Shown here: positions 21,448 through 42,179 of the stretch, piece after piece
Numbering within the stretch: position 1 is the first letter of the stretch
How the letters are laid out: the number at the start of each line of letters is the position of its first letter
Assembly: GCA_009699245.1 (NCBI GenBank)
Contig: WLOQ01000010.1
Coordinates: 1 to 64,000, forward strand
Length of the DNA: 64,000 nt
Direction: 5' to 3'
Origin: Actinomycetota bacterium
GTDB taxonomy: Bacteria > Actinomycetota > Thermoleophilia > Solirubrobacterales > Solirubrobacteraceae
Notes under the pieces: generated by a model
Seen by the model: the letters and a program-made list of their open reading frames with translations, nothing else
Database searches by the model: none
Told to the model about the DNA's origin: nothing
Position numbers and translations under genes: made by a program

Positions 21448-21530
21448 CGCACCGGCGGTGCGGAGCGCGCTTCGTAGTATCGCGAATGCGCCAGAGGAGC
21501 GGCCGGAGACCCCCTCCCAATTGCTAGTGT
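21448..21530. promoter_or_regulatory. Divergent control region: palindrome and -10 boxes
   Basis: The 178-base gap contains a perfect CGCACCG-G-CGGTGCG palindrome (21448-21462), a TAGTAT box (21475-21480) and TAGTGT (21525-21530). TAGTGT ends 8 bases before ATG 21539 of the HMG-CoA-synthase-like gene, again the leaderless spacing. I see no gene in this gap. Confidence 0.4.
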
Positions 21531-21538
21531 CCAGCGCT

Positions 21539-22828
21539 ATGAGCCCCTTTCAGCAGGCCGAGGGACCTGACACGGCGGCCGCCGTCGTCGGCACCCCAGC
21601 AACCCTCCTCGGGGCCGGTGCGGTCCTTGGGATCGACCGTGTCCCGGCACGCAAGGGCCGCCGCGCGGCCGCCCGCCCGGACGAGGACGCGGTGACCCTC
21701 GCAGCCGAGGCCGCAGCGCTCGCGATCCCGGCCGACGCCGACCGCATCGGCGGCATCATCTTCGTGACGACGACGCCCCCGTACCTTGAGGGCGCCGCGG
21801 TCCAGGCGCTCGCCGAGCTGCTCGACCTCCAGGGCAACACGTTCGCGCTCGAGCTTTCCGCCTCGCTGCGTGACGGCCTTGCGGCCGTGCGTCTCGCCGC
21901 CTCGCTCGCCCCGAGCATCGGCCCGGTCCTCGTGTGCGCGTCGCACGCCGGCCGCGGTGATCGCACGATGGGCGACGGCGCCGTCGCGCTCCTGATCGGC
22001 GCGGACGCCGGTGAGGGCGCGGGCCTCGCACGCCTCACCCCCGTCACCTCGACGTCGATTGAGATCCGTGACCGCTGGCGGCTGCCCGGCGACGATGTCC
22101 CGCGCGACGCCGACCGCTCCTTCGCTCAGGAGATCGGCACCGTCAAGCTCGTCAACGACCTGATCGCCGGACTCCCCGAGGAGCTCAAGGCTCCCCCGGT
22201 CGTCGTCGGCCCGGACGCCCGCGGCTCCGCGACGGTCGAGAAGGCCGGCGGCGGTGCAGCCGACGCCGTCACGTCGCTCAGCGGCGTCATCGGCGCCGCG
22301 CATCCGCTGCTGCGCCTCGTCGCATCGCTCGACGCGCCGGCGCTCGTCGTCGCCATGTCGAACGGCCTCGGTGAGGCCGTCCACGTCGTCCCCGCACCTG
22401 CCGGCGCAGCCGCGGCCGCCCAGGTGCGCGGCCTCGCCGCCAACGGCGGCGCCGAGGCCGACCGCGCGATGGCCGACCCGATGCCCGCCGACTTCAACCC
22501 GTACTCCTCCGGACCGCGCGCCTGGCGCGACCGCGACGTCGACCTCCGCCTGGCCGGCCTCTTCGGCCCGGCCGAGGGGCTGCCCGCAGTGCCGGGCCGT
22601 CGTCACCCCGAGGGGGTCATCATCGCCCGCACCGCCGACCACGTGTACCCGGCCGGCAAGGTGACGGAGATGGCCGTCGCGACGATGGACGACGGCGGGC
22701 AGTACTACGGACAGGTCACGGTCGGCGATGACGTCCAGATCGGTGACCGAGTGAAGCTCGTACCGCGCCGCCTCCACCATGGCGGCGGGATGATCCAGTA
22801 CCACTGGAAGGTGACCCCATGCCGGTAG
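21539..22828 (+). CDS. HMG-CoA synthase/KAS III-like protein fused to DUF35 OB-fold
   Basis: 429 aa. Residues ~20-330 resemble the thiolase-superfamily fold of HMG-CoA synthase/ketoacyl synthase III (GAGAVLGIDRVP, IGGIIFVTTTPPYLEG, MGDGAVALLIG). The C-terminal ~75 residues form a DUF35-type OB fold (GQVTVGDDVQIGDRVKLVPR, MIQYHWKVTP) without the usual zinc-ribbon cysteines. At the expected nucleophile site the sequence is ELSASLRDG (residues 105-113) with no Cys, and only two cysteines occur in the whole protein. A non-catalytic scaffolding partner for the overlapping thiolase is therefore likely. Domain pairing is reminiscent of PhlA-PhlB-PhlC and the archaeal thiolase/HMGCS/DUF35 complex. 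The stop overlaps the thiolase start by 10 bases. Confidence 0.8.
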   Translation: MSPFQQAEGPDTAAAVVGTPATLLGAGAVLGIDRVPARKGRRAAARPDEDAVTLAAEAAALAIPADADRIGGIIFVTTTPPYLEGAAVQALAELLDLQGNTFALELSASLRDGLAAVRLAASLAPSIGPVLVCASHAGRGDRTMGDGAVALLIGADAGEGAGLARLTPVTSTSIEIRDRWRLPGDDVPRDADRSFAQEIGTVKLVNDLIAGLPEELKAPPVVVGPDARGSATVEKAGGGAADAVTSLSGVIGAAHPLLRLVASLDAPALVVAMSNGLGEAVHVVPAPAGAAAAAQVRGLAANGGAEADRAMADPMPADFNPYSSGPRAWRDRDVDLRLAGLFGPAEGLPAVPGRRHPEGVIIARTADHVYPAGKVTEMAVATMDDGGQYYGQVTVGDDVQIGDRVKLVPRRLHHGGGMIQYHWKVTPCR

Positions 22829-24006
22829 CCGGAAACGTCGCGATCGTCGGCTCTGCCGCAACGGTCTTCGGAGTCCATCACGAGCTGGGGTATCTCGACC
22901 TGCTCGAGGACGCCTCCCGCCGCGCCATCGAGGATGCGGGGCTCCAGAACCAGGATGTCGAAGCCGCATGGCTCAGCACCGCGGTGACGGATGTCGTCGC
23001 TCTCGAGGGTGAGTCGGGCAGCCCGATCACCGAGCGCCTCGACTTCGCTCCCCGCCCCGTGACGCGCGTCTCCGCGTACTGCGCCTCCGGCATGGAGGCC
23101 GTCCGTAACGCGGCCATCTCGATCGCCGCCGGCGAGTACGAGGTCGTCCTCGCGGTCGGCGCCGAGAAGATGCGCGACGTCACGCCGCGCGGCAGCCTCG
23201 TCGCCCGCACCGGCAATATGACCCACCCGACCCTCACCAAGGGCCGCACCGGGCCGGGCTTCTTCGCGCTGCTCGCAAGCCGCTACCTCGACACCTTCAA
23301 CCGCACGACCGACGACCTGTCGGCGGTCGCGGTGAAGAACCACGAGCACGCGACGCGCAACCCGATCGCGCAGTACAACGAGCCGGTCACGGCCGAGCAG
23401 GTCCGCAGCTCGGCGATGATCGCCGACCCGCTGCGGGTCCTCGACTGCACCCCCACGACCGACGGCGCCGCCGCGGTCGTGCTCGCATCCGTCGAGTGGG
23501 CGAAGAAGAGCGGTCGCCCCTACGCGGTCCTCTCCGGGGTCGGCTTCTCCGTCATGGACGGCTACTACTCGGGCCTCTACAACCCGGAGAACGACTTCCT
23601 CGGGTTCCGGGCGACGCGTGAGGCCTCCAAGGTCGCCTACGCGCAGGCCGGCATCCACACCCCGCGTGAGCAGCTCGACCTCGTCGAATGCCACGACTGC
23701 TTCACAATCACGGAGATCCTCAACTACGAGGACCTCGGCCTCTGTGGTCGCGGCGAGGGCTGGAAGCTCCTGCTCGACGGTGCGACCACGATCGGCGGCG
23801 ACATCCCGGTGAACCTCTCCGGCGGTCTGCAGTCCTGCGGCCACCCGATCGGCGCCACCGGCGTGCGCGTCGTCAAGGAGGTCGCCGATCAGATGATCGG
23901 GCGCGCCGGTGGCCGACAGGTCGCAGGCGCGAAGCACGGCGTCGCTCACACGCTGGGCGGCCCGGGCATCCTCTCCTGCGTGATGGTCATCAGCGCCGCC
24001 GAGTAA
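22819..24006 (+). CDS. SCP2-type thiolase (acetyl-CoA acyltransferase-like)
   Basis: 395 aa. The nucleophilic Cys88 lies in SAYCASGMEAVRNAA. A His is in VECHDCFTITEI and the CGHPIGATG motif follows near residue 337. The C-terminal GGPG (not CxGGG) is typical of the SCP2/Ltp subgroup, which works with DUF35 partners as thiolase or retro-aldolase in steroid side-chain and benzylsuccinate pathways. It overlaps the upstream HMGCS-like/DUF35 gene by 10 bases, so the two are translationally coupled and probably form one complex. It would cleave a beta-ketoacyl-CoA or a beta-hydroxyacyl-CoA. Confidence 0.9.
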   Translation: MPVAGNVAIVGSAATVFGVHHELGYLDLLEDASRRAIEDAGLQNQDVEAAWLSTAVTDVVALEGESGSPITERLDFAPRPVTRVSAYCASGMEAVRNAAISIAAGEYEVVLAVGAEKMRDVTPRGSLVARTGNMTHPTLTKGRTGPGFFALLASRYLDTFNRTTDDLSAVAVKNHEHATRNPIAQYNEPVTAEQVRSSAMIADPLRVLDCTPTTDGAAAVVLASVEWAKKSGRPYAVLSGVGFSVMDGYYSGLYNPENDFLGFRATREASKVAYAQAGIHTPREQLDLVECHDCFTITEILNYEDLGLCGRGEGWKLLLDGATTIGGDIPVNLSGGLQSCGHPIGATGVRVVKEVADQMIGRAGGRQVAGAKHGVAHTLGGPGILSCVMVISAAE

Positions 24007-24109: not shown

Positions 24110-25873
24110 TCAGGCGCTGACGTACGAGGACGCCGCGGTGAGCGGATCGCCGATCGCCGCGCGCCCGGCGCAGTAGCCATTGAAGATGGCCGGCCCGAGC
24201 GTCGAGCCGCCGCCCCAGTACGCCGCGCCGGTCGGCGAGGCGATGCAGTTGCCCGCACCGAACAGGCCGGGAACCGGCGTGCGGTCGTTGCGCAGGATCT
24301 GCCCGTCGAGCGTGATCTTCGGACCGCCCTTGGAGCCGAGGCACGACGCGCCGTAGACGAGCGCGTAGTACGGGCCGGTGTCCGCGATGGGGTACATCGT
24401 GAAGTTCGGCTTCTCGTCCTCACCGCGGAACTGCACGCTGAAGTACTGCTGCGGCCAGGTGTTGCCACGGCCGAAGTCCTCGTCGACGCCGGTCTCGGCG
24501 AAGCCGTTGAACCGCTCGATCGTCGCCTTGAGATTCGGGACGAAGTCGTCCGAGAGCTGGAAGCCATCGGTCTGGTCGGCGAGGCCGTCCAGGCGGGCGC
24601 GCAGGGCGTCGGCGAGCTCCTCGAGCGTGTCGCCCTTGACGACGTACTCGGGGATCTCCGGTGCGACCGGCACGGGCCAGCGGGCCGGCCACTCCGACGG
24701 ATCGTCGATGACCGAGCCGTGGAGCACCTGGACCAGGAGCCGGTACGGGTAGCTGCCGTCCGGCGCCTGGTACGAGTGGATCTTGCCGCGCTCGTTGTAC
24801 GACTCCTTCTCGTTGCTCACGCGCTTGCCCTCGAAGCTCACGCCGACGGTCGCGTCGCCGTAGAGCTGGTTCATGAGCTCACCCTGCTCGGTGCTTGCGA
24901 GGCACGGCTCGAGCGGCAGAGTCGCCCACCACGCCTCACGCATGTTGCCGAGCGAGAGGTCGTGACGCTCGGCGATCCGCACGAGGTCGCCGCGGTTCGT
25001 CTCCACGCCGCAGGAGCCGACGATCGGGCCGCGCAGGTACTTCTCGCGCAGCTCCTTGTCGTGCTCGAGACCACCGCTGCCGAAGATGACGGCCTTGCGG
25101 GCCGTCACGGTGACCGAGCCGCTCGGGCTGTCAGCCACGACGCCGGTCACGCCGCCCTCATCGTCGAAGACGAGGTCGGTGACGCGGTGCTCGCAGACGA
25201 CGTCGCCGCCGTACTTACGCAGCGATGCCGCGAGGCGCAGCGTGAGGTCGACGCCGTCGCCGAAGGTCGCGCCGAGCGACTGCATCGCCTCGTCCGACCC
25301 GCCGGTGCGCTTCGCGCTGAGCGAGAACCCAGCCGATCCACGGTCCTTGTCGAAGGCGGTGACGCAGAGCAGACGGCCGTACGTGTTGCCGTCCTCCTCG
25401 GTCTCGAACCAGCTCGGCAGGCCGAGGTCGTCGCCGCGGAAGGAGCCGAGCCACATGATCGTGATGTCGTCGGTGGACTCGAGGTCGCCGATGACCTCGG
25501 CGGCGTTGTCGTAGTAGTGGACGATGTGATCCCACTCGTGCTGGTCGAGGCCATGGCGCTCGGCGCCGCGGTCGTACTTCTCGGGGTACGCCATGCGCGC
25601 CATGTGCGCGAGGCATCCGTCGCGGTCGTCAACGAAGTGGTCGTCGGTCTGCGCGCGCTCGAGCTGCAGGCGGTTGCGCGGGATCCAGAAGCCACCCGAG
25701 GACTTGGCGGTCGTTCCGCCGATGCCCTCTGCGACCTCAAGGACGATCACCGACGCGCCACCGCGCGCGGCCGTCATGGCGGCCGTGAGGCCAGAGGCCC
25801 CTGCGCCGACGACGACGACGTCGTACTCCGTCTCGGCCAGCGTGTTGCCGCCGCCGTTCATGTTCTCCGACAC
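24110..25873 (-). CDS. KstD/fumarate-reductase-like FAD flavoprotein
   Basis: 587 aa from GTG 25873, chosen because AGGAGG lies 8 bases upstream; ATG 25861 is the alternative. The FAD_binding_2 fold opens VVVVGAGASGLTAAMTAARGG. The family's SSGGFWIPRNR loop is at about residue 65, and AYWGGGSTLGPA is near the C-terminus, where ketosteroid dehydrogenases have their Tyr-x3-Gly. Such enzymes introduce or remove C=C bonds next to a ketone (3-ketosteroid Delta1-dehydrogenase, Delta4 enzymes) or reduce fumarate-like acids. It is last in a ~10-kb operon that contains a paralogue at 29.8-31.6 kb. The substrate is unproven. Confidence 0.82.
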   Translation of the reverse strand: MSENMNGGGNTLAETEYDVVVVGAGASGLTAAMTAARGGASVIVLEVAEGIGGTTAKSSGGFWIPRNRLQLERAQTDDHFVDDRDGCLAHMARMAYPEKYDRGAERHGLDQHEWDHIVHYYDNAAEVIGDLESTDDITIMWLGSFRGDDLGLPSWFETEEDGNTYGRLLCVTAFDKDRGSAGFSLSAKRTGGSDEAMQSLGATFGDGVDLTLRLAASLRKYGGDVVCEHRVTDLVFDDEGGVTGVVADSPSGSVTVTARKAVIFGSGGLEHDKELREKYLRGPIVGSCGVETNRGDLVRIAERHDLSLGNMREAWWATLPLEPCLASTEQGELMNQLYGDATVGVSFEGKRVSNEKESYNERGKIHSYQAPDGSYPYRLLVQVLHGSVIDDPSEWPARWPVPVAPEIPEYVVKGDTLEELADALRARLDGLADQTDGFQLSDDFVPNLKATIERFNGFAETGVDEDFGRGNTWPQQYFSVQFRGEDEKPNFTMYPIADTGPYYALVYGASCLGSKGGPKITLDGQILRNDRTPVPGLFGAGNCIASPTGAAYWGGGSTLGPAIFNGYCAGRAAIGDPLTAASSYVSA

Positions 25874-25959
25874 GAGCCACTCCTCCTGGATCCTGCATTC
25901 GGCTGCGCGACCGCGCCAGCCCTCTCTGCGCGTGATTGTCTCACACGCAGAGCGCCGCG

Positions 25960-27411
25960 TCAGGCGCGCTCGGGCGCCGACGACACGACGCGACTCGTGA
26001 TCGCGCGCCGCGCGGAGCTCGGGATCAGCAGCGCCGCAAGCGCTGCGCCCAGCGCGGCGATCGCGCAGACGACGTAGACGAGCGTGAAGGCGCCTTCGGT
26101 GGGAGACCCACCGGCGACGCTCGTCGTGAGGATCGTCGCGGCGACCTGCGCCCCGATGGCGCCGCCCAGCATGCGCACGACCGTGTTCACCCCGGAAGCC
26201 GCCCCGGTCTGGTCCTGCCTGACGTTCTGCACGATGAGGTTGACCATCGCCGCGAAGGCGAGACCGAGCGCGAGGCCGACGATCGTGTTGGCGACATAGA
26301 TCTCCCACGGCTCGGAGCGCATCGTCGCGAACATCACGAAGGCGATCGTCGCGAGCACGCACGCGAGGAGCAGCGGCGGCTTGGAGCCCACGCGGCGCTC
26401 GATCGCGCCGGCGAACTGGCCGGCGAAGAACATCCCGAGGGCCGCCGGCGCCTGGTACATCCCCGCCTCGACGATCGACGAGCCAAAGCCGTAGCCCGTG
26501 CTCGTCGGCTCCTGGACGAGCATCGGCGTGACGAGGAACGAGGCGTACATGCCGACCCCGTAGAGCACGGCGACGAGGTTCGTCGTCCACACGCCGCGCA
26601 GGCGCATCATGTGCATGTCGATGACCGGCGTGTCGCTGCGCAGTTCGACCTGCACCCAGGACGCCATCAGGAGCAGGCCGAACGCGAAGAGGCCGAGCGT
26701 CTTCGGCGAGCCGACCCCCCACGAGTCGCTCTGCGTGACGGCGATCAGGGCCGCGCTGAGCCCGAACGACATGAGCGCCGCCGCCGCCCAGTTGATCCGG
26801 CCCGGGACCTTGACCGGCGATGGCGGGACCCAGAGCCACGCGGCGATGAGCGCGAGGACGGTCATCCCGAACGGCACCCAGAAGAGCCAGTGATAGTTCA
26901 GCTGCTCGACGATCACGCCGGCGAGCACGAGCCCGACGGCCGAGCCGATACCGAGGAGCGAGGAGAGAAAGCCCAGGCTGCCCGGGATCTTCTTCGGCGG
27001 CAGCTCGTCGCGGACGATGCCGTAGGCGAGCGGGAAGACGCCGCCGCCGACGCCCTGGATGACGCGTCCGAGGATGAGCACCCCGATCGAGCTGGCGAGC
27101 GCGGAGAGCAGCGTCCCGGCGATCAGGACGACGAGCACGACGCGCAGCATGCGGTCCTTGCCGAACATGTCGCCGAGACGGCCCACGATCGGCGTCGCGA
27201 CCGCGGCGCTGAGCAGGTACCCCGTCATGACCCATGCGATCGTGCCCTGCGAGGCGCCGAAGCGGTGCTGGATGTCCGGCAGCGCCGGGATGACGAGCGA
27301 CTGCAGGAGCGAGTAGCCGAGCGCCGCGAATGCGACGACCGCAAGGGTCATCCGCGGGTTCACCCGCGCACGAGTCCCTCCGGCGTCGTCGGCGACGTCG
27401 GCGCCGGTCAC
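25960..27411 (-). CDS. MFS transporter (DHA2 type)
   Basis: 483 aa, many hydrophobic helices. The motif between helices 2 and 3 is GRLGDMFGKDRMLR (about residue 75) and the helix-5 antiporter-type motif is GRVIQGVGGGVFPLAYGI. The sequence starts with a short charged N-terminus and MTLAVVAFAALGYSLLQSLV. Start ATG 27411 overlaps the stop of the EthD-like gene by 4 bases (ATGA). Within the operon it may export or import the pathway substrate; a drug-efflux annotation alone would miss this context. Confidence 0.87.
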   Translation of the reverse strand: MTGADVADDAGGTRARVNPRMTLAVVAFAALGYSLLQSLVIPALPDIQHRFGASQGTIAWVMTGYLLSAAVATPIVGRLGDMFGKDRMLRVVLVVLIAGTLLSALASSIGVLILGRVIQGVGGGVFPLAYGIVRDELPPKKIPGSLGFLSSLLGIGSAVGLVLAGVIVEQLNYHWLFWVPFGMTVLALIAAWLWVPPSPVKVPGRINWAAAALMSFGLSAALIAVTQSDSWGVGSPKTLGLFAFGLLLMASWVQVELRSDTPVIDMHMMRLRGVWTTNLVAVLYGVGMYASFLVTPMLVQEPTSTGYGFGSSIVEAGMYQAPAALGMFFAGQFAGAIERRVGSKPPLLLACVLATIAFVMFATMRSEPWEIYVANTIVGLALGLAFAAMVNLIVQNVRQDQTGAASGVNTVVRMLGGAIGAQVAATILTTSVAGGSPTEGAFTLVYVVCAIAALGAALAALLIPSSARRAITSRVVSSAPERA

Positions 27412-28112
27412 GCCGAGGCCCGCTCGAAGAGCAGGTTCTCGTGCGTCAGGACGGCCTCGTTGCGGCGGTGATCGAGGAACTCGCGCTCCATGTCGAGCAG
27501 CCCCGAGCCCTTGAGCTCGCCCATGAAGGCGCCCATCTGCTCGACGGAGGCGAACGACATCTCGACGAAGCCGTCGCAGTACTCGGCATCCGGGAACGCG
27601 TGGTTCTGCACGTAGCGGCAGACGTTCCCGGTGAGCGCGGGGCGCGCCAGGAACTCAGCGCCCACGGCGAGCCAGCCTGCCTTGAAGCCGGCGCGGTCGA
27701 CGCCGTCGACGCGGTGCAGCGCCGCGACCAGCGTGATCGGGCCCGGCTCCCCGTCGACGATCACGTGCTCCTCAGTGGGGACGAGGTTGGCGCCGAGCCG
27801 ACGGCCGAAGGTGTCGACCTCGTCGACCGCCATCGTCTCGACGTCATCGACGAGCCCCATCACCGGGTCGAGGTCGAGCCAGATCATTCCCACACCGCCG
27901 TACTGCCCATTGTGCATGCGAGCGATCACATCCTCGCTCACGCCATGCTCACCGGCGACGATGGTGTCGCACTGCTTGTAGCGCGTGTGGTGCTCCCAGA
28001 GTGAGAGCCCCATCGCCAGTGCACCGTGCCCGCGCCAGCGCGCACGGAAGTCGGCGTGGCTGCGACCGTCGGGCAGCGGGGCGAGGTACATGACCTTCGC
28101 CGGATTCGTCAT
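27408..28112 (-). CDS. EthD-like dimeric alpha/beta-barrel protein (tandem copy A)
   Basis: 234 aa. Opens KVMYLAPLPDGRSHADFRAR and appears to hold two ferredoxin-like halves of ~110 residues each (second half from ITLVAALHRVDGVDRAGF). This suggests an EthD/Dabb-type fold duplicated within the chain. The close paralogue immediately upstream (28137-28853) shares RYKQCD, YGGVG and DAEYCDGFVE blocks. EthD domains assist cytochrome P450 ether cleavage in Rhodococcus or act as small ring-modifying enzymes, but no P450 is encoded here. Function is unknown; coupling to MFS and flavoprotein genes points to the same catabolic pathway. Confidence 0.65.
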   Translation of the reverse strand: MTNPAKVMYLAPLPDGRSHADFRARWRGHGALAMGLSLWEHHTRYKQCDTIVAGEHGVSEDVIARMHNGQYGGVGMIWLDLDPVMGLVDDVETMAVDEVDTFGRRLGANLVPTEEHVIVDGEPGPITLVAALHRVDGVDRAGFKAGWLAVGAEFLARPALTGNVCRYVQNHAFPDAEYCDGFVEMSFASVEQMGAFMGELKGSGLLDMEREFLDHRRNEAVLTHENLLFERASA

Positions 28113-28136
28113 GGGGTCTGGCTCCTTGCGGCCCGC

Positions 28137-28853
28137 TCAGTCGACGACGTCGTAGAGCAGGGTCTCCCGCGTGATGACCGCCTCCATCTTGGAGCGATCC
28201 ATGAACTCGTTCTCGGCCTCGGCGAGGCCGGACTCCTGCATGGCGCCCATGAAGGCGAGCAGGTTGTCGACGTCCGCGAACGAGAGCTCGACGAAGCCGT
28301 CGCAGTACTCAGCCTCGGGGAAGGCGTCGTTGTGGACGTACCGGTTGACGCGGCTCGCGAGCTCCGGGCGGCGAGCGACCTCCTGCCCCAGCTCGAGCCA
28401 CTTCTTCGAGAAGGTCTCGCGATCCATCCCGGCGACGCGGTGGACAGCGCCGATGACCGTGATCGGACCGGGCGCGCCCGGGATGACCTCGCTCTGCACC
28501 ACACCGGTGAGGTTGACGCCCAGCTCTCGGCCGAACGTCGGGACCTCATCGACGCACATGGTCTGCACGTCGTCGGTCTCCGACAGCGTCGCCCCTAGCG
28601 CCTCCGCGTCGTGGAAGTAGATCTGCCCCACGCCGCCGTAGTCGGCGGTGCGGAAGTGGGCGAGGAGGTCCTCCGGGAGGCCCTCCTCGCCGGCCGTCAG
28701 GACATCGCACTGCTTGTAGCGCGACATGTACTTCCAAAAGCCGAGCCCCATCGCGAGGTCCGCATGCTGACGCCAGCGAGCGCGGAACTCGGGATGGGTG
28801 CGGCCGACCACCAGCGGGGCTAGGTACATGACCTTGATCTCACCGGTGGCCAT
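28137..28853 (-). CDS. EthD-like dimeric alpha/beta-barrel protein (tandem copy B)
   Basis: 238 aa from ATG 28853, 5 bases after the hydrolase stop, with a GGGGAG element upstream. Begins MATGEIKVMYLAPLVVGRTH; contains RYKQCDVLTAGEEG, YGGVGQIYF and AEYCDGFVELSFADV, matching the downstream copy block by block. The pair arose by tandem duplication. Two halves (break near residue 120) each resemble EthD/Dabb barrels. A Cys-rich or metal site is not evident. I cannot assign an activity; candidates are a cyclase, isomerase or protective binding protein for a reactive intermediate. Confidence 0.65.
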   Translation of the reverse strand: MATGEIKVMYLAPLVVGRTHPEFRARWRQHADLAMGLGFWKYMSRYKQCDVLTAGEEGLPEDLLAHFRTADYGGVGQIYFHDAEALGATLSETDDVQTMCVDEVPTFGRELGVNLTGVVQSEVIPGAPGPITVIGAVHRVAGMDRETFSKKWLELGQEVARRPELASRVNRYVHNDAFPEAEYCDGFVELSFADVDNLLAFMGAMQESGLAEAENEFMDRSKMEAVITRETLLYDVVD

Positions 28854-28858
28854 GTCGG

Positions 28859-29782
28859 TCAGCTCCCCTGCGTGTGCGCGGTGACGAAGTCCGCAATGTG
28901 GTCGAGCGCCTGCTGCGCGTCCGGCAGGAACGAGCAGTGGTTGTGCCAGAGGTGCGTCATGTCGTCCCACACCTCGATGGTCACGTCGACGCCGGCGGCC
29001 TTCGCCTTCTCGCCGAAGGCGATGCCGTCGTCCTGGATGCCCTCGTCGCCGCCGACCTGGATCAGCAGCGGCGGAAGGCCGGTGAGGTCGTGATTGATCG
29101 GCGATGCGGCGACCTCGTCCTGGCCCTGCATGAAGGCCGGGACGTTCTGCATCGCCAGCTCACGCGTGACGAAGCAGTGGGCGCCGATGTTCGGGTCGTT
29201 CCACGACGCGCCCTTGAACTCGAAGTCCGCCATCGGGGAGATCGGGACCGCCCCGCCCGGCAGCGGATGACCGCCGTCGCGCAGCGCGAGCAGCGTGAGC
29301 AGCACGAGGCCACCACCGGCGGACTCGCCGGCGATCACGACGTTCTCGGCCTTCACGCCGGTCTCCAGCAGCGCGAGGAACGCCGTGACGACGTCCTCGA
29401 CCTGCGCCGGGAAGGGGTTCTCCGGGGCCAGGCGGTAGCGCGGCAGGATCGCACGGGCCTTGGCACGCCGCGCGGCACGCGAGATCGGCGTCGTGACCGT
29501 CTCCGGGCTGCCGAGCACGAAGCCGCCGCCGTGGAGATACATGATCACGCGGCCGGTGTCCGCGCCGGGCGGAGTCACCTCGACGGCGGAGATGCCACCC
29601 AGGTTGATGTCGCGCTTCTCGATGTCGGCGTCGAGCGGCCCGGACCATGTGGGAATGACCGAGGCATCAAGGCCACGGACGGTCGCGAGCGCGACCATCG
29701 GGTCGGAGTCGTCCACGCCGGCCAGCTTGGCCTTGTAATCAGCGACGGCCTCGCGGGCCCGCTCAAGCTCTGCACTTGCCAT
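28859..29782 (-). CDS. Alpha/beta hydrolase, hormone-sensitive-lipase (HSL) family
   Basis: 307 aa. HSL-family signature YLHGGGFVLGS near residue 86 (oxyanion hole), nucleophile elbow VIAGESAGGGLVL with Ser near residue 155, and catalytic Asp/Glu and His candidates in GGDEGIQDDGIAF and THLWHNHC near the C-terminus. It would hydrolyse a short ester or lactone. In this operon it could open a lactone formed by Baeyer-Villiger-type or flavin chemistry (inference). The gap to the EthD-like gene is 5 bases. Confidence 0.88.
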   Translation of the reverse strand: MASAELERAREAVADYKAKLAGVDDSDPMVALATVRGLDASVIPTWSGPLDADIEKRDINLGGISAVEVTPPGADTGRVIMYLHGGGFVLGSPETVTTPISRAARRAKARAILPRYRLAPENPFPAQVEDVVTAFLALLETGVKAENVVIAGESAGGGLVLLTLLALRDGGHPLPGGAVPISPMADFEFKGASWNDPNIGAHCFVTRELAMQNVPAFMQGQDEVAASPINHDLTGLPPLLIQVGGDEGIQDDGIAFGEKAKAAGVDVTIEVWDDMTHLWHNHCSFLPDAQQALDHIADFVTAHTQGS

Positions 29783-29824: not shown

Positions 29825-31564
29825 TCAGGCGGCGGCCTGAGCGGCGGCGGTACGGCGGGGCTCCTGCGCGACGTTCTTCCCGGCCATGTAGCCGAGGACG
29901 AGCGCCGGACCGAGCGTGCTGCCGCCGCCCCAGTAGGCCTCGCCGGCCGGTGAGGCGATGCAGTTGCCCGCGCCGTAGAGGCCCGGGATGGGCTCGCCGC
30001 TGGGACGCAGGACGCGGCCGCTCGTGTCGGTGACCGGCCCGCCCTTGGTGTCGAGCGTCGCCGCGCCGAGGACCATCGCGTAGTACGGGCCCTCCTCGCG
30101 GAAGGCGGCCAGGCAGTTGTTCTTCGCACCGGGGCGCAGCGGCTCGCTGTACCACTGGTTCGAGTCGTTGCCGCGCCCGAAGTCACGGTCGACACCCCCC
30201 TGCGCGAACTCGGCGTACAGCGCGAGGGTCGCCTTCAGGCCGTCGAGGAAGTCGGACCGCAGCTCGAAGTTCTCGACCTCGGCACCGAGCTTGGTCAGCC
30301 GCGCCTCGATGTTCGCCGCAAGCTCCTCGAGCGTGTCGCCGACGATGACGTAGTCCTCACGCACACCGGCGGGCGGGATCGGCCAGCGCGACGGCCACAC
30401 GAGCTCGTCGCCGGCGACCGCGTCGTCATAGACGAGGAAGAGGTACTTGTTCGGCAGCTCGCCGTTCTCGTCCGCGACGAAGTGCGCCTTGCCGCGCTCG
30501 TTGTACATCGACTTCTCGTTGACGACGCGCTCACCGGAGGCGTTGACGATGATCGAGCTGGCGCCGGGGATGAAGCCCATGAGCTCAGGCGTCTCCGACA
30601 TCGTCTTGGCGAGCTCCACCGGCAGCTCGGTCCACCACGCCTCGCGCATGTTGCCGAGTTCAGCGCCGGCCTCGAGTGCGATGTCGATGAAGTCGCCCTG
30701 CGCGGTGCCGACCGAGCAGGACCCGACGATCGGGCCGCGCAGGTACGCCTTGGCGTGGACCGGGTTGTGGCTGAAGCCGCCGGTGCCGAACACGACGCCC
30801 TGGCGGGCGCCGATGCGCACGGGCCCGTCGGGCGTCGAGGCGGTGACGCCGATGGCGGCGCCGTCGGCATCCTGGATCACGCCGGTGACCCGCGTCTCGA
30901 GCACGATCTGGACGCCGAGGCGCTCTGCTGCCGCGGCGAGCTGACCGACCATGTCGGCGCCGTCGCCCTGGCGGCCGCCGAGCTGACGCATCGCCTCGGC
31001 CGACGGGTTCGACGCGACGGACTCGGCGAACTCCTCGACGCGCGCGCCGAGGACCGTGCCGTTGGTCGCGTCGTAGCCGCTGTTGTAGTAGTGCGGCATG
31101 CCGTCGTCGCGCCCCGGATAGTCCATCTGGGTCGACTTGAGGATGCCTTCGGCCTCGTACTCGTCGATGACCTTCGGCGCGATGTCGAAGAACTCGGCGA
31201 TGAGGTCGTACTCCCGCTGGGTCAGGCCGAGCAGCGGCGCGTTCTCATCAAAACGGTCGGGATAGCCGAGGACCGCCATGTGCTTCAACGTCGCATCGCG
31301 GTCCATGGAGACGCCGCGCTCACGCTGGTTGCGGTTGTTCGGAATCCAGTAGCCACCGGATGAACGCCATGAGGTGCCGCCGATCTTGTCGGCGACCTCG
31401 AGCATCACGACGTCGGCGCCGCCGCGGGCAGCCATCACAGCTGCAGAGAGGGCTGCCGACCCCGTGCCGACGACGATCACGTCGGTCGCGGTGATGCCCG
31501 TTGTCTCGTTGCCCTGGACCTCGGGTCGATCCCCGAGATCGCGGTGGCTCCTGAAGTTCCCCAT
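29825..31564 (-). CDS. KstD/fumarate-reductase-like FAD flavoprotein (paralogue)
   Basis: 579 aa from ATG 31564 (a GGGGGAG element is close upstream; ATG 31585 is possible). FAD motif VIVVGTGSAALSAAVMAARGG, family loop GGTSWRSSGGYWIPNNRNQ, and C-terminal GLYGAGNCIASPAGEAYWGG with the Tyr-x3-Gly arrangement. It is clearly homologous to the flavoprotein at 24.1-25.9 kb in the same operon. Two copies suggest sequential or stereospecific dehydrogenations of a cyclic ketone. Note GTGSAALS: the third Gly of GxGxxG is Ala, tolerated in this family. Confidence 0.82.
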   Translation of the reverse strand: MGNFRSHRDLGDRPEVQGNETTGITATDVIVVGTGSAALSAAVMAARGGADVVMLEVADKIGGTSWRSSGGYWIPNNRNQRERGVSMDRDATLKHMAVLGYPDRFDENAPLLGLTQREYDLIAEFFDIAPKVIDEYEAEGILKSTQMDYPGRDDGMPHYYNSGYDATNGTVLGARVEEFAESVASNPSAEAMRQLGGRQGDGADMVGQLAAAAERLGVQIVLETRVTGVIQDADGAAIGVTASTPDGPVRIGARQGVVFGTGGFSHNPVHAKAYLRGPIVGSCSVGTAQGDFIDIALEAGAELGNMREAWWTELPVELAKTMSETPELMGFIPGASSIIVNASGERVVNEKSMYNERGKAHFVADENGELPNKYLFLVYDDAVAGDELVWPSRWPIPPAGVREDYVIVGDTLEELAANIEARLTKLGAEVENFELRSDFLDGLKATLALYAEFAQGGVDRDFGRGNDSNQWYSEPLRPGAKNNCLAAFREEGPYYAMVLGAATLDTKGGPVTDTSGRVLRPSGEPIPGLYGAGNCIASPAGEAYWGGGSTLGPALVLGYMAGKNVAQEPRRTAAAQAAA

Positions 31565-31671
31565 GTCTCCCCCTGCGGTGTACATCCGCGCCGGGACGGC
31601 GGCGGATTGAAGCTGCACGATCCTAGTCGCTGGGGCGAGCGCGCGGCAACCCGCTCGACCGACCCCGACCG

Positions 31672-32073
31672 CTAGCTCGGCTCGACAAACTCGACGCGCA
31701 CGCCGGCGGTCGCCGCGGTGTCGAGAAAGGCGATCGTCGCGCCGTGGTGGCCGACCATCGGATCCCCGTCGCGAGCGACGATGCTGGCATCGGCGAGCCC
31801 CGCGAGCAGCGGATTCATTCCCTCGACCGTGAACGCGATGTGGTGGACGCCACCCTGGCCGTTGCGGATCGCCTCCGCAGCGCGGGAGTCCTCACCGAGC
31901 GGGCGGATGAACTCGATCCGCACCCCATCGCAATGCACCCAGAGGATCTCGATGCCGAGCGTGGGCTCCGGCTCGGGCTCGTCGACCTTGAGGCCGAGCC
32001 GCTGCGCGAGACCGAGGACCACGTCGAAGTCCTCGACGAGGATTCCGACGTGGTTGAAGCCCGTGACGCCCAT
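31672..32073 (-). CDS. VOC-family protein (methylmalonyl-CoA epimerase-like fold)
   Basis: 133 aa. Two VOC half-modules: GFNHVGILVEDFDVVLG and VHHIAFTVEGMNPLL. Putative metal ligands are His in NHVG, Glu in RIEFIRP, His in VHHIA and Glu in RVEFVEPS. It resembles the VOC protein at 18.7 kb, but with Glu instead of Gln at the second site, so lyase or epimerase activity cannot be decided. It follows acetoacetyl-CoA synthetase by 2 bases and precedes the flavoprotein, inside the ~10-kb operon. Confidence 0.72.
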   Translation of the reverse strand: MGVTGFNHVGILVEDFDVVLGLAQRLGLKVDEPEPEPTLGIEILWVHCDGVRIEFIRPLGEDSRAAEAIRNGQGGVHHIAFTVEGMNPLLAGLADASIVARDGDPMVGHHGATIAFLDTAATAGVRVEFVEPS

Positions 32074-32075
32074 CG

Positions 32076-34049
32076 TCAGTCCTTCGGGCGCGAAGCGGCG
32101 ATCGCCGCGAACTCGTCGAGGACCTCGGCGTTCTGCACGGAGCCGGCGTTGGCGACCTTGGCGACGTCCTCGCCGAGCATGATCTGCTTGACGGGAACCT
32201 CGAGCTTCTTACCGGTGAGCGTCATCGGAATCCCGCTCACCGCGTAGGCCTCGTCGGGCACGTGGCGCGGCGAGCGCTGGCGGCGCAGCTCGCCGGCGAG
32301 CTTCTTCTTCAGCTCGTCGGTCATCTCGACACCGTCCGCGAGGACGACGAAGAGCATCAGCGTGCCGCCGCCGCGCGTGCCGCCCTCAAGGTGTACGACG
32401 AGACTGTCGTCGACCTCCGGGAGCGCATTCACGACGCTGTAGAACTCGCTCGATCCGAGCCGCACACCGCCGCGGTTGAGCGTCGCGTCCGAGCGCCCGA
32501 GGATGTCGCAGGTGCCGCGCGGCGAGACGATGAAGCGGTCGCCGTGGCGCCAGTACCCGGGGAACATCTCGAAGTACGTCGTGCGGTAGCGCTCGCCGTC
32601 CTCGTCACCCCAGAAGAAGACGGGCATCGAAGGCATCGGCTTCGTGATGATCAGCTCGCCGGGCTCATCGATGAGCGGCTTGCCGTTCTCGTCCCACGCC
32701 TCCGCGGCGACGCCGAGGAGGCGCGCCGGGATCTCGCCGGCGCTGACCGGGGAGATCGGCGTGCCGCTGACGAAGCCCGAGCAGACGTCGGTCCCGCCGC
32801 TGCCGGAGAAGAAGTGGACACCGGGCTTCACGTCGTCGTTGACGTAGTGGTAGCCCTCGACGGGCACGGGCGAGCCGGCCCCGACGATCTCGCGCACCCG
32901 GCTGAGGTCGTAGTGGTCCTTGGGCTTCAGGCCGGACTCGCGGCAGAGCATGAGGTACGCGGCGCTCACGCCCCAGCTCGTGACCTTCGCCTGCTCGACG
33001 AAGTGGAAGAGCTCGCCGAGCTCCGGGTACGTGGGGTCGCCGTCGAGAATCGCGAAGCTCGCGCCCGTGAGCAGCGAGGAGACGACGCGGTTCCAGACCA
33101 TCCAGGCGGTCGTCGAGAAGAAGAAGTAGCGGTCCTCCTTCTTGAGATCCTGCAGGAGCGCCCCGACCTTCAGGTGCTCGAGGAGGATGCCGCCCTGGCT
33201 CTGGACGATCGGCTTCGGCAGCCCGGTGGTGCCGGACGAGAAGAGGATCCAGAGCGGGTGCTCGAACGGCACCGGCTCGAAGGTGAGCGGCGCCGTGTGC
33301 GCGCGCAGCTCGTCCCAGGACATCGTGTCCGGCACCGGCGTGGCGCCCTCGAGGTACGGGATCACGACGGTCGCGGCGAGGTTCGGCAGCGCCTGGCGGA
33401 TCGCGGTGATCTCCTCGGCGCGCTCGATCTTCTTCTTGCCGTAGACGTAGCCGTCGACGGCGAGCAGGACCTTCGGGTCGATCTGCTGGATGCGGTCGAG
33501 GACGCTCTGGATGCCGAACTCGGGCGGACAGGCGGCCCAGATGGCGCCGAGGCTGGCACAGGCGAGCAGCGTGATCGCGGCCTCGGGGATGTTCGCGACG
33601 TACGCGGCGACGCGGTCGCCGGGGCCGACGCCGAGGCGGCGCAGGCCTTCACGCACGCGCGCGACCTCTTCGCGCAGCTCGCCGCGCGTGAGGTTGATCG
33701 GGTCGCGCGACTGCGAGTGGGCGACGATGACCTCCTGGTCGTCGTCCTCGAAGCGCAGCACGTGCTCGGTGTAGTTGAGCTTCGCGCCCGGAAACCACAC
33801 GGCGCCCGGCATCTTCGCGTCGGCGAGCGCGGCCGTGGGCTGCTCGTGGGCGATGATGTCGAAGTAGTCCCAGATCGACTGCCAGAAGTCGCTGAGCTCG
33901 GTCGTCGACCACTCCCAGAGCGACGTGTAATCGTCGAACTGCAGCCCGCGCTCGCGCTCGAGCCACCCCATGTAGTCACCGATGCGCGTGGTCTCGCGCC
34001 AGTCGGTCGGCGGCGTCCAGAGCACCTCACCGGGTGCGAGCGGACTCAT
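32076..34049 (-). CDS. Acetoacetyl-CoA synthetase (acetoacetate-CoA ligase)
   Basis: 657 aa, the usual length for the family. It opens with the characteristic LWTPPTDWRETTRIGDYMGW. Adenylation P-loop LFSSGTTGLPKPIVQSQGG is near residue 267, and the C-terminal swivel domain includes GRSDATLNRGGVRLGSSEFY and the catalytic-Lys region SGIPMTLTGKKLEVPVK. It forms an acyl-adenylate, then the CoA thioester, of acetoacetate or a similar 3-oxo acid. As the first gene of the 24-34 kb operon it could activate the pathway substrate itself rather than serve ketone-body metabolism. GGGGGCACCC precedes ATG 34049. Confidence 0.88.
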   Translation of the reverse strand: MSPLAPGEVLWTPPTDWRETTRIGDYMGWLERERGLQFDDYTSLWEWSTTELSDFWQSIWDYFDIIAHEQPTAALADAKMPGAVWFPGAKLNYTEHVLRFEDDDQEVIVAHSQSRDPINLTRGELREEVARVREGLRRLGVGPGDRVAAYVANIPEAAITLLACASLGAIWAACPPEFGIQSVLDRIQQIDPKVLLAVDGYVYGKKKIERAEEITAIRQALPNLAATVVIPYLEGATPVPDTMSWDELRAHTAPLTFEPVPFEHPLWILFSSGTTGLPKPIVQSQGGILLEHLKVGALLQDLKKEDRYFFFSTTAWMVWNRVVSSLLTGASFAILDGDPTYPELGELFHFVEQAKVTSWGVSAAYLMLCRESGLKPKDHYDLSRVREIVGAGSPVPVEGYHYVNDDVKPGVHFFSGSGGTDVCSGFVSGTPISPVSAGEIPARLLGVAAEAWDENGKPLIDEPGELIITKPMPSMPVFFWGDEDGERYRTTYFEMFPGYWRHGDRFIVSPRGTCDILGRSDATLNRGGVRLGSSEFYSVVNALPEVDDSLVVHLEGGTRGGGTLMLFVVLADGVEMTDELKKKLAGELRRQRSPRHVPDEAYAVSGIPMTLTGKKLEVPVKQIMLGEDVAKVANAGSVQNAEVLDEFAAIAASRPKD

Positions 34050-38077: not shown

Positions 38078-38827
38078 TCAGCCCTTGAGGACTTCGGGGC
38101 GCCCGACGACGACCACGCCCTGCGTGCGGTCGAGCCACGGCGCCTCGGCCGGGAAGAGCTCCTCGACGAGCGAGGGCTGACCCATGAAGTCGAGCATCTG
38201 CTCGACCGACGAGAAGCCCATGATCGCGACGCCGTCGAAGCGGGCGTCGCCTGCGCCGGTCGGGTCGAAGACGTGGCTCTGGATGTACATCTGGGACCGG
38301 CTGACGAGCTCATCATGGGTCAGGAAGAGGTCGATGAAGTCGCGCCACTGATCGGCGAACTCGTCCAGCGTCAGGTTCGGCTGGCGCTTGAGCCAGCTGA
38401 AGATCTTGATGTTCGTGTCGCCACGGTCGTAGATCAGCTCGTCCTGGAAGAGGAAGGAGTTCTCGATCGAACTGCCGAGGATCTCGGCCTCGTGCGAGCG
38501 CGCCTCGATGACCTCGGGCAGCGCCGCGAGCTCGCCGAGCGCCTCCATGCCACCGGTCAGCCATGCCTGGCCGACGCAACCCCAGGCGTCGCTGATGAGC
38601 CCGGGGCCAAAGAGCGCCCCAGGGAGCGTGGGATCGTCGGCCGGCGAGAAGAGCTGGGTGATCTCGTACCGCGTGACGATCGGCCCCACCTGCTCGAGCG
38701 CCATGATGCCGCGCAGGTGCTCGGCCCATTTCGGCGTCACCTGCGCCGGTGTGGCATCCGCGGGGCACGGTGCGAGGTACATGAGCTTCTGGGCCTCGGT
38801 GGCGCGGCCGACGTGCTGACGGGTCAT
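38078..38827 (-). CDS. EthD-like protein encoded at the end of the liv operon
   Basis: 249 aa. Shares the opening KLMYLAPCPADATP and general two-half layout with the EthD-like pair at 27.4-28.9 kb, but is more divergent (FLFQDELIYDRGDTNIKIF mid-chain, ARFDGVAIMGFSSVEQMLDF near the end). Start ATG 38827 overlaps the livF stop by 4 bases, so it is translated with the transporter. A cytoplasmic protein tied to an importer suggests action on, or binding of, the imported compound. No specific reaction can be assigned. Confidence 0.65.
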   Translation of the reverse strand: MTRQHVGRATEAQKLMYLAPCPADATPAQVTPKWAEHLRGIMALEQVGPIVTRYEITQLFSPADDPTLPGALFGPGLISDAWGCVGQAWLTGGMEALGELAALPEVIEARSHEAEILGSSIENSFLFQDELIYDRGDTNIKIFSWLKRQPNLTLDEFADQWRDFIDLFLTHDELVSRSQMYIQSHVFDPTGAGDARFDGVAIMGFSSVEQMLDFMGQPSLVEELFPAEAPWLDRTQGVVVVGRPEVLKG

Positions 38828-39555
38828 GCGGAAGCTCCTCGGAGGGGTGAATCGGCGGGCAGGTGCCCGTGGAGGTAGACGCTGCGCAGATCCTCGGTGC
38901 GCGCAGCGAGATCCTTGGCTGGCGCGCGCAGCGCGACCTCGCCGCGGCTGAGGACGTACGCCTCGTCGCCGATGGCGAGCGCGAGCGCTGCGAACTGCTC
39001 AACGAGCAGGACCGCCATGCCCTCGTCGGCGAGGCGCCGCCAGATCGGCATGAGGCGGCGCACGATCACAGGTGCCAGGCCGAGGGACATCTCGTCCACG
39101 AGGATCGTGCTGGGCTTCATCGCGAGCGCACGGGCGATCACGAGCATCTGCTGCTCGCCGCCCGAGAGCGAGCGCGCGAGCGTGTCGCGACGCTGGACGA
39201 GCTCGGGGAAGGTCGAGAACGCCTCCTCGGCCGCATCACGGTCCTTGGCAGCGACCAGCACGTTCTCGAACGTCGTGAGCTCGCCGAAGACGGCGCGTCC
39301 CTGCTCGACGTGCGCGAGGCCGAGGCGCGAGCGCTTCACGCGCGAGGCCCGGTTGATCTTCGCGCCATCGAGCTCGGCGGTTCCGCCGCTCGCGGGGATC
39401 AGTCCGGAGATCGCTTCGAGCAGCGTGGTCTTGCCGGCGCCGTTCGGGCCGAGCATGACGGTCACCTGACCGCGGGGGACGACGAGATCGACTTTGCGGA
39501 CGATCGGGAAACCTGCGCGATCGACCGAGAAGCCGCTGAGCTCAAGACCCTCCAT
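38824..39555 (-). CDS. livF: Branched-chain-amino-acid-type ABC transporter ATPase LivF
   Basis: 243 aa. Walker A GPNGAGKTTLLEA near residue 37, Q-loop, signature SLSGGEQQMLVIARAL near residue 130, Walker B STILVDEMSLGLAP, and H-switch region ending LLVEQFAALALAIGD. This second ATPase pairs with the LivG domain encoded upstream. Stop TGA and start ATG share one base with livM-livG (TGATG at 39555). Confidence 0.92.
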   Translation of the reverse strand: MEGLELSGFSVDRAGFPIVRKVDLVVPRGQVTVMLGPNGAGKTTLLEAISGLIPASGGTAELDGAKINRASRVKRSRLGLAHVEQGRAVFGELTTFENVLVAAKDRDAAEEAFSTFPELVQRRDTLARSLSGGEQQMLVIARALAMKPSTILVDEMSLGLAPVIVRRLMPIWRRLADEGMAVLLVEQFAALALAIGDEAYVLSRGEVALRAPAKDLAARTEDLRSVYLHGHLPADSPLRGASA

Positions 39556-41300
39556 CAGACCTCCACCTCCTCGCCCAGGTAGGCCGAGACGACCTTCGGA
39601 TCCGACAGGACGACATCCGGAGTGCCATCGGCGATGACGCGGCCGAAGTCGAGCACGACGACATGCTGCGCGATGGCCGTCACGAGCTCCATGTCGTGTT
39701 CGACGAGCAGCACCGAGGGGCCGTACCGGCCGGGAATCTCGGCGATGCGCCGCGCGATCTCCTCGGACTCCTCGCCGCCGAGTCCGGCTGCGGGCTCGTC
39801 GAGCAGCACGAGCTCCGGCTGCGCGGCGACGGCCCCGGCGACCTCGAGCAGTCGGCGAGTGCCGACGTCGATGTCACCGACGCGCGTGTCGCGTGGCGGG
39901 CACGAGAAGAAGGCGAGCAGGTCGTCGATGAAGTCCGGCGTCGCCACGCGGCGCTGTTCGCGCGAGAGCCCGAGGCGCAGGTACTCCTCGATGGACAGGT
40001 CCGGGATCGTGCGCCCCTGCTGGAAGGAGCGACGCACGCCATGGTGCGCACGCTCGTGCGCCGAGTAACCGTCGATCGGCGACCCTGCTGCGCTGACCGA
40101 CCCGCTGTAACTGCGATTGAACCCGGTCACGCAGTCGATGAAGGTCGACTTGCCGGCACCGTTGGGGCCGATCAGTGCCACGACCGATCCGTGCGGGACC
40201 GTGATCGAGACATCCTCGAGCGCCTTGACCTGCCCGTAGCTGAACGTGAGGCCCTCGACGACGAGGGCAGCCGCTGAACCATCAGCGGGTGCGGGCACCG
40301 AGGGCGGCTCGTAGCCGACGGGAGGCTCGGCGACCCCGAGCTCAGCGGTCTTGCGGCGACGTCGATGGAGGACGTCGCGAATGTCCTCCGCGGCGCCGAA
40401 CCCGCGGCGCAGACCGAGGATCGCGCCGACGCCGAAGAAGATGTCACCGATGTCCTGGGGAAGCCCGAGGAGCTTGAGGATCGTCGGCATGAAGGCGAAG
40501 AGCGCGCCGCCGATCAGCGCGCCTTCGACGAAGCGCGAGCCGACCATGATCGCGAGTGCGAAGAGGCTCAGCGACCCGAGCGGCGAGAGGCTGCCGCTCG
40601 GCTCGGCAGTCCCGAGCTGGACGGCGAAGATTGCACCGGCGACGCCGCCGCAGAGCGCACTCACGCCGAAGGCGGTCATCTTCGCGATCGGTGCGCTGCG
40701 TCCGAGGGCCGCCGTGGCGCGCTCGCTTTCGCGCAGGGCAGACCAGCTGCTGCCGATGTTCGTCCGGCCGAGGATCGTGACGATCAGTGCCACCACGATG
40801 AACGCGCCGGCGGCGAAGAGATAGAAGGACCCCTCGCTCATGAGCGCATCTGGGCGCTCGATGAAGTTCGCCTGCTTTGCGCCCGGGAACCCCTTGACGG
40901 AGAGATACACCGTCAAGGCAGTCGAGAACGCCAACGTCACGACGCCGAGGTTGATGCCGCGCAGGCGCAGGGCCGGCAGGCTGACGAGCACGCCGATCGG
41001 GACCGTGATGAGGCTCGCGATGACGAGCTTGATGAGGAAGGGCATCCCCGGCGCGTGGACGTTGAGCCAGAGGATCACGAACGCTCCGACGGCCATGAAT
41101 GCCGTCTGGGCGAGGCAGATGAGGGCTGCGCGCCCTGTGACGACGCCGAGCCCGAGCAGCGCGATCGCGAAGATCGCCGCCGTCGTCGCGTTGTACTGAT
41201 CGAATTCGGAAAGGAAGACCGGGGGGATCAGCAGCAGGACGAGGACGACCACCGCGACCGGCAGGCTGCGGACGATCCAGCGGGGATCAGCGAGCCGCAT
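39555..41300 (-). CDS. Fused LivM permease-LivG ATPase
   Basis: 581 aa. Residues 1-~300 are a LivM-type permease with about 8-10 helices (LLGLGVVTGRAALICLAQTA, ALRLRGINLGVVTLA). A charged linker (RRRRKTAEL, Pro-rich) joins a LivG-type ATPase from about residue 345. Walker A is GPNGAGKSTF near residue 375 and Walker B is LVLLDEPAAGLGGEES. The ABC signature is degenerate: DVGTRRLLEV where LivG normally has LSYGQQRRLE. Such fusions ensure 1:1 permease/ATPase stoichiometry. The start overlaps the livH end by 14 bases. Confidence 0.9.
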   Translation of the reverse strand: MRLADPRWIVRSLPVAVVVLVLLLIPPVFLSEFDQYNATTAAIFAIALLGLGVVTGRAALICLAQTAFMAVGAFVILWLNVHAPGMPFLIKLVIASLITVPIGVLVSLPALRLRGINLGVVTLAFSTALTVYLSVKGFPGAKQANFIERPDALMSEGSFYLFAAGAFIVVALIVTILGRTNIGSSWSALRESERATAALGRSAPIAKMTAFGVSALCGGVAGAIFAVQLGTAEPSGSLSPLGSLSLFALAIMVGSRFVEGALIGGALFAFMPTILKLLGLPQDIGDIFFGVGAILGLRRGFGAAEDIRDVLHRRRRKTAELGVAEPPVGYEPPSVPAPADGSAAALVVEGLTFSYGQVKALEDVSITVPHGSVVALIGPNGAGKSTFIDCVTGFNRSYSGSVSAAGSPIDGYSAHERAHHGVRRSFQQGRTIPDLSIEEYLRLGLSREQRRVATPDFIDDLLAFFSCPPRDTRVGDIDVGTRRLLEVAGAVAAQPELVLLDEPAAGLGGEESEEIARRIAEIPGRYGPSVLLVEHDMELVTAIAQHVVVLDFGRVIADGTPDVVLSDPKVVSAYLGEEVEV

Positions 41301-42144: not shown

Positions 42145-42179
42145 GCTCAGACCTCGCGCAGTGGCTCAGCAGGGAGGGA

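Follow-up and report, generated by a model that had tools for sequence, protein, structure and literature searches.

The two adjacent genes EthD-2 and EthD-1, which lie in a 64,000-nucleotide stretch of DNA from a member of the Solirubrobacteraceae (Actinomycetota; assembly GCA_009699245.1, contig WLOQ01000010.1, positions 1 to 64,000, hereafter the window), each encode a protein of the EthD family in which a ferredoxin-like half is duplicated, and they share an eight-gene operon with two flavoproteins that, among solved proteins, come closest to a cyclohexanone dehydrogenase. This suggests, tentatively, that the pair are fused-dimer EthD enzymes of an operon serving the breakdown of a cyclic ketone (alicyclic or terpenoid-like), where they would enolise and hydrate or dehydrate a ring enone, a role that we regard as possible rather than probable. 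The EthD family itself is known, and the pair is a variant in subfamily and setting that has not been characterised before. EthD genes occur in catabolic clusters, and few of them have an assigned function.

EthD-2 (28137..28853, minus strand, 238 amino acids) and EthD-1 (27408..28112, minus strand, 234 amino acids) were both matched by the Pfam EthD model (PF07110), the pair scoring 29.4 and 43.3 bits against a gathering score of 22, with two matching stretches in each protein. They are 53% identical, with a single four-residue gap, and the blocks MYLAPL, RYKQCD, YGGVG and AEYCDGFVE all occur in both, which bears out the tandem pair of EthD-like proteins with common blocks described in an earlier sequence-only reading of this DNA. 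Third codon positions have a GC content typical of coding DNA (0.91 in one gene and 0.86 in the other, the latter on a 277-amino-acid open frame). When the pair was checked against the EthD, Dabb and NIPSNAP profiles, as that reading had advised, EthD alone passed its threshold; there was no Pfam match to NIPSNAP or Dabb (stress-responsive A/B barrel), and a search at E ≤ 1 gave EthD and a sub-threshold DUF7913 match only. An NCBIfam scan of the pair gave nothing above any cut-off, and a PDB sequence search with EthD-2 gave no matches at E up to 10, so that no close relative of it was found among solved proteins. Phylogenetic analysis of 17 EthD proteins joined the pair in one clade with a support of 99/99, and because the deeper branching of this tree is mostly unresolved we make no statement on the origin of the pair.

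Profiles of the N-terminal and C-terminal halves (N-half and C-half), built from six rows (EthD-1, EthD-2, the third EthD gene of the window and three proteobacterial proteins), matched each other in hhalign with a probability of 96.4% (E 1.1e-9, 87 columns). AlphaFold2 models were obtained for EthD-2 from a 10-row alignment (predicted local distance difference test, pLDDT, 94.2; predicted template modelling score, pTM, 0.90) and for EthD-1 (pLDDT 92.8, pTM 0.89), and each model runs twice through one and the same succession of strands and helices. In each chain a ferredoxin-like half has been duplicated, and the two units in one chain are predicted to form a single fused alpha/beta barrel, both of which had been proposed from the letters of the DNA. 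The accompanying view that this two-half form is unusual did not survive, as Hsh3, discussed below, is a precedent (PMC12175502) and several more two-half EthD genes are found in the same genome.

Structural comparison with VIA-align, which was given preference over the Foldseek ranking, placed the anthrone-oxidase-like protein 5f9p first among full-length matches (Z 16.8, root mean square deviation (rmsd) 3.2 over 208 residues, 8% identity), with the monooxygenase PenE 9kdp (Z 16.1, rmsd 3.0, 198 residues), sulfur oxygenase reductases (Z 13.7-14.9) and the bacterial chalcone isomerase (full-length, Z 13.2-13.5, rmsd 4.3-4.5, 215-221 residues) below it. Matches to a single half ranked lower, namely 4-methylmuconolactone methylisomerase (Z 11.6, rmsd 2.5 over 97 residues, on the C-half of the EthD protein) and olivetolic acid cyclase (Z 10.6). 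In the Foldseek ranking the upper places went to chains of putative monooxygenases, chlorite dismutases and coproheme decarboxylases, at an rmsd of about 5-9.

The operon runs on the minus strand and begins with an acetoacetate--CoA-ligase-type enzyme (32076..34049), which passed two NCBIfam cut-offs (863.2 against 639 and 743 against 520.9). It is followed by a VOC/glyoxalase-type protein (31672..32073), which is methylmalonyl-CoA-epimerase-like and under the cut-off of that model, then by flavoprotein a (29825..31618, FAD_binding_2, cyclohexanone-dehydrogenase-like) and by an HSL-family serine hydrolase (28859..29782, Abhydrolase_3), for which EstD11 is the best solved relative and the GESAG HSL model stays under its cut-off. 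EthD-2 and EthD-1 come next, followed by an MFS transporter (25960..27411, DHA2/EmrB-like, under the curated cut-off) that overlaps EthD-1 by 4 bases, and by the cyclohexanone-dehydrogenase-like flavoprotein b (24110..25873), for which a GTG start behind AGGAGG was chosen and searches were run on 24110-25909. The intergenic gaps in transcription order are 2, 53, 42, 5, 24, -4 and about 86 bases, the last being counted from the MFS stop to the chosen GTG start. A promoter scan found none, and a terminator scan found four where 2.4 were expected. The coupling of the pair to flavoproteins, an HSL hydrolase and an MFS transporter was thus described correctly before, to which the ligase and VOC genes, then unmentioned, can be added. 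It had also been stated that no P450 is encoded here, and there is indeed no PF00067 match on the contig that carries the window; the whole genome has nine such matches, in about eight genes. A P450 neighbour is known from the ethyl tert-butyl ether (ETBE; eth) cluster, where it is a matter of context and no defining trait of the EthD family.

Both flavoproteins have cyclohexanone dehydrogenase (8AM8/8AM3/8AM6) as their nearest solved relative (E 1.9e-89 for a and 6.6e-93 for b), compared with E 3.8e-42 and 7e-35 respectively for the best ketosteroid dehydrogenase, 7p18, so that their earlier designation as KstD-like flavoproteins was right in the second word and imprecise in the first. Tyr376, Tyr570 and Gly574 are catalytic in the cyclohexanone dehydrogenase of Alicycliphilus denitrificans (PMC10966990), and both a and b have Tyr, Tyr and Gly at the aligned positions, which accounts for three of the four catalytic residues of that enzyme (8AM3); the region of the catalytic Tyr195 is poorly aligned in one flavoprotein and unaligned in the other. 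Because both proteins score well below the cut-offs of the NCBIfam KstD, ChcC1 and ChcC2 models, their exact activity cannot be named. The two genes have DNA repeats in common at 75-83% identity, as paralogues should. In A. denitrificans K601 the cyclohexanone dehydrogenase adjoins a molybdenum 3-hydroxycyclohexanone dehydrogenase, unlike the arrangement in the window (PMC10966990, PMC3692508).

Two characterised proteins guide the reading of the EthD pair. Hsh3 of Sphingobium sp. Chol11 is described as an EthD-domain 7-beta-hydroxysteroid dehydratase of about 250 amino acids acting on a delta-4-3-keto bile salt, with a nearly mirror-symmetric predicted barrel and published homologues of at least 62% identity (PMC12175502). 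It shares with the pair the EthD domain and the two-half predicted barrel, and its role is catabolic, on a keto compound; its substrate differs in being a steroid. The Hsh3 homologue of N. aromaticivorans (WP_011906908.1, 252 amino acids, plasmid pNL2) is a single gene adjoining short-chain dehydrogenase/reductase (SDR) genes, a regulator, a P450 and a ferredoxin. It was aligned weakly with the window group by hhalign (37%, E 3.5e-4) and was found by an 11-protein profile of the present group (E 4e-5 at a database size of 100,000; E 1.4e-7 among 927 open frames), suggesting that the pair is related to Hsh3 within the family by distant homology at profile level, short of demonstrated orthology. 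The bacterial chalcone isomerase of Eubacterium ramulus (3zph, 4d06) also consists of two fused ferredoxin-like domains and carries out a reversible Michael addition next to a ketone, catalysed by His33, an acid/base residue in one of the domains; it differs by a mobile lid at residues 106-130 (PMC9694015, PMC8361940).

Tyr10, Trp27, His30, Tyr46 and Glu103 are identical in all 12 rows of the alignments used (A1 and A5, including two near-copies and seven external rows) and Lys7 in 11 of them, with the conservation of His30 and Trp27 in the seven external loci being there by construction, because the pattern by which those loci were sought contained both residues. At the C-half position corresponding to His30, 2 of the 12 rows have a His, the first helix region of this half being missing in the alignment for three Novosphingobium rows. 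In the EthD-2 model His30 sits in the helix formed by residues 20-35. This distribution suggests that the catalytic pocket is probably in the N-half, with His30 as candidate acid/base and Tyr46 and Glu103 as helpers, and we infer that the C-half would serve as a scaffold from which the His has been lost.

In the pathway that we propose, the two flavoproteins would desaturate a ring ketone to an enone or dienone, which the EthD pair would enolise, after which water would be added or removed (a Michael hydration or the reverse reaction). On the model of Hsh3 and the bacterial chalcone isomerase, His30 of the N-half would remove a proton from the position alpha or vinylogous to the ketone of the ring, or return it there, and the beta carbon would gain or lose water. 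The ring could then be opened by a dehydrogenase together with the HSL hydrolase, and the resulting keto acid could be activated by the acetoacetate-CoA-ligase-type enzyme and passed to beta-oxidation. That there are two sister EthD genes suggests either two successive substrates or a hetero-oligomer. Such a pathway would resemble the cyclohexanol route, which is described as passing through cyclohexanone, 2-cyclohexenone, 3-hydroxycyclohexanone and 1,3-cyclohexanedione (PMC3692508), and for which the hydratase is presented as unsettled and possibly unneeded (PMC4052635). In the literature searched there was no report coupling EthD with a cyclohexanone dehydrogenase. A more specific form of the proposal, in which the pair would be a dedicated Michael (de)hydratase for the flavoprotein-made enone, working as a hetero-oligomer of half-degenerate chains and supplying the enzyme that the alicyclic pathway has lacked since doubt fell on the hydratase role of the molybdenum enzyme MhyADH, seems to us unlikely.

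Both EthD and these flavoproteins are enriched in this genome, which is 1.95 Mb in size and 99.4% complete. It has 11 EthD domain matches in nine genes (ten with EthD-1, which was unlisted in that search) and eight such flavoproteins at E 1e-40, against EthD matches in 7 of 60 relatives, with at most two matches each, and one flavoprotein in a single relative (G020), the same relative that alone reaches two EthD matches, which share an open frame. For six of the eight flavoproteins an EthD gene is no more than 10 kb away, a number that random placement never reached in 200,000 trials (contigs joined in one line, with those of unknown length pooled), and for four it is no more than 5 kb away, a number reached in 41 of 200,000. 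For control genes at the 10-kb distance the counts were one of eight for P450 genes and 12 of 33 for SDR genes (35 matches, fragments merged). EthD genes mark catabolic islands, and their extra tie to flavoproteins is at most modest.

Several points weigh against an enolising and (de)hydrating role of the pair. The EthD activity and substrate are inferred, and the addition of water to 2-cyclohexenone is described as capable of being spontaneous (PMC4052635). Over the full length, the fold agrees best with an anthrone-oxidase-like protein and not with a hydratase. BLASTP of the Hsh3 homologue against the window proteins gave nothing meaningful, the Pfam EthD match of that homologue is in the C-half alone, which is the half without the His here, and EthD-1 has its own stronger Pfam EthD stretch in the C-half. 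Sequence kinship with the chalcone isomerase could not be detected (hhalign over the N-terminal 106 residues scored 12.4, compared with a best of 15.2 in 100 shuffles), and for this reason the position of its His33 was not transferred. The conservation of His30 is tested by three paralogues from the same genome alone. The difference between flavoproteins and SDR genes in their closeness to EthD gave a Fisher p of 0.057, and as SDR genes lie near EthD as well, much of the clustering may reflect catabolic islands. Outside this genome there is no general tie: no EthD gene was found at any of the 12 plasmid loci encoding a flavoprotein of this kind (10-14 kb per side where the record allowed), by a scan with two EthD profiles that found EthD in all four control stretches including the Hsh3 homologue, and 2 of the 7 external genomes with the nearest EthD relatives carry a flavoprotein at E 1e-40.

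At the plasmid loci, an NTF2-like gene was seen within one to three genes of the flavoprotein in all eight that were annotated, the stretches of the other four being without annotation and omitted from this count. An NTF2-like protein standing in for EthD beside the flavoprotein, by comparison with the NTF2-like Hsh2, whose task is similar to that of the EthD protein Hsh3, was considered and dropped, since four of the loci look like a single Rhodococcus locus and two like a single Novosphingobium locus, and because those six adjoin Rieske/ring-hydroxylating-dioxygenase alpha genes the NTF2-like genes may be dioxygenase beta subunits. In the genome studied here, one flavoprotein of the same group (L053:7205-8790, contig C19) has no EthD match near and an SnoaL_4 (NTF2-like) gene directly behind it.

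Other functions for the pair were weighed against the same evidence. As enol or lactone isomerases, once the ring had been desaturated or cleaved, the two proteins would shift a double bond or rearrange a lactone, without any change in water, in the manner of 4-methylmuconolactone methylisomerase (3hds/3hfk), a ring-lactone isomerase whose fold resembles one half of the EthD protein and which is the top PDB sequence match of both profiles (E 0.22 and 0.056, in a weak range of 0.056 to 0.25) as well as the half-barrel fold match reported above. That enzyme differs in being a single domain of about 116 amino acids, its match covers one half, the His-less one, and the E-values are not significant, and we consider an isomerase of this kind unlikely.

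The best full-length fold matches, 5f9p and PenE, would rather suit a cofactor-free monooxygenase, with the fused barrel oxidising a ring compound with oxygen as anthrone oxidases do. However, the identity is 8% and a common fold gives no proof of function, a search of the literature on 5F9P, PenE and 9KDP found nothing useful, and the operon would fit desaturation chemistry without an oxygenase, which leaves a monooxygenase quite unlikely. The EthD protein beside the ETBE P450 has been seen as a helper, and the pairing of sister genes would suit a binding oligomer, so that EthD-1 and EthD-2 might act without catalysis, as binding, carrier or protective proteins for a reactive enone. We think this decidedly unlikely, however, as Hsh3 is an example of an EthD barrel protein of similar size that works as an enzyme (PMC12175502), and the strict conservation of Tyr46 and Glu103 fits a catalytic pocket. 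Least probable is a steroid hydroxyl dehydratase proper, the equivalent of Hsh3 on a steroid or bile salt, which would share its architecture and have KstD-like neighbours and SDR genes nearby, but which is opposed by the want of a meaningful BLASTP match to the Hsh3 homologue, by flavoproteins closer to cyclohexanone dehydrogenase than to KstD, and by KshA (PF19298), which was not found in this nearly complete genome (the control genomes gave one match, below the cut-off). The failure to find KshA makes full or canonical steroid breakdown unlikely, and a steroid pathway was rejected as the principal interpretation on this ground.

Relatives of the pair are sparse. EthD-2 had no match at E 1e-3 in any of 60 relatives, a set that includes 16 genomes from its own genus, and a profile of five EthD proteins from its own genome, at E 1e-10, found matches in 7 of 398 further genomes from its class and, at phylum level, in 13 of 395 (these sets are samples that may overlap, and about 15 of the 20 matches span one half only). 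No relative of the pair was found in the viral_contigs set or in a first scan of genome_contigs, PHROGs gave nothing, and plasmids gave a single record at E 1e-5 and three with E allowed up to 1. When genome_contigs was searched with a single peptide pattern, seven proteobacterial loci (L042-L048) emerged from 350 pattern matches, and the two-half EthD proteins of these loci (Novosphingobium, Variovorax and others) are the nearest external relatives (E 1e-8 to 5e-16), with 22-35% identity to the pair in the best segment. SDR-like genes adjoin the EthD gene in L044-L048, no cyclohexanone-dehydrogenase-like gene was seen in the seven fetched stretches, and L048 has an OYE-family (old yellow enzyme) flavin oxidoreductase, a ferredoxin reductase and a P450.

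Side-by-side EthD genes of similar length are a recurrent arrangement. Two stand next to each other in both L046 and L048, like the window pair, and on contig C18 of the genome studied here two are found head to head, adjoining two flavoproteins; in L042 a neighbour has a sub-threshold EthD match (19.3 bits). The Pfam match is in the N-half of one L048 gene and in the C-half of the other, and in L046, where the second EthD gene alone was scanned, it is in the C-half. The genes with a C-half match as in the Hsh3 homologue (L048:10694-11377 and L046:8105-8746, both on the minus strand) adjoin EthD genes of the present group.

Elsewhere in the window, a third two-half EthD gene (38078..38827, minus strand) belongs to a separate operon behind a branched-chain-type ABC transporter (38824-43397); it is a paralogue with 26-27% identity to the pair. 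Beside the operon of the pair, on the plus strand (21458-24006), are genes for an HMG-CoA-synthase-like protein and then an SCP2/lipid-transfer-type thiolase, with the models for both under their cut-offs. On contig C14 of the same genome a two-half EthD gene adjoins a VAO-type FAD oxidase, so named from reading the sequence (L041:8269-10637 and L050), with cyclohexanone-dehydrogenase-like flavoproteins farther along, and one of the eight flavoprotein genes (G000:C14:190556-192268) has an in-frame TGA within the match, which might reflect a disrupted gene or a fault in the assembly. On contig C1 a 228-amino-acid protein (L051:16228-16914, minus strand) adjoins a flavoprotein gene and has no Pfam match; by eye it appears to be a two-half alpha/beta barrel, and the EthD profile did not detect it.

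An operon linking a two-half EthD pair to cyclohexanone-dehydrogenase-like flavoproteins narrows the candidate substrates of these proteins. It bears on the question, raised for the cyclohexanol pathway (PMC4052635), of whether that pathway has a true Michael hydratase, and the function of the pair would reveal whether EthD proteins serve in general to add water to ring ketones or to remove it, as the lone case of Hsh3 suggests.

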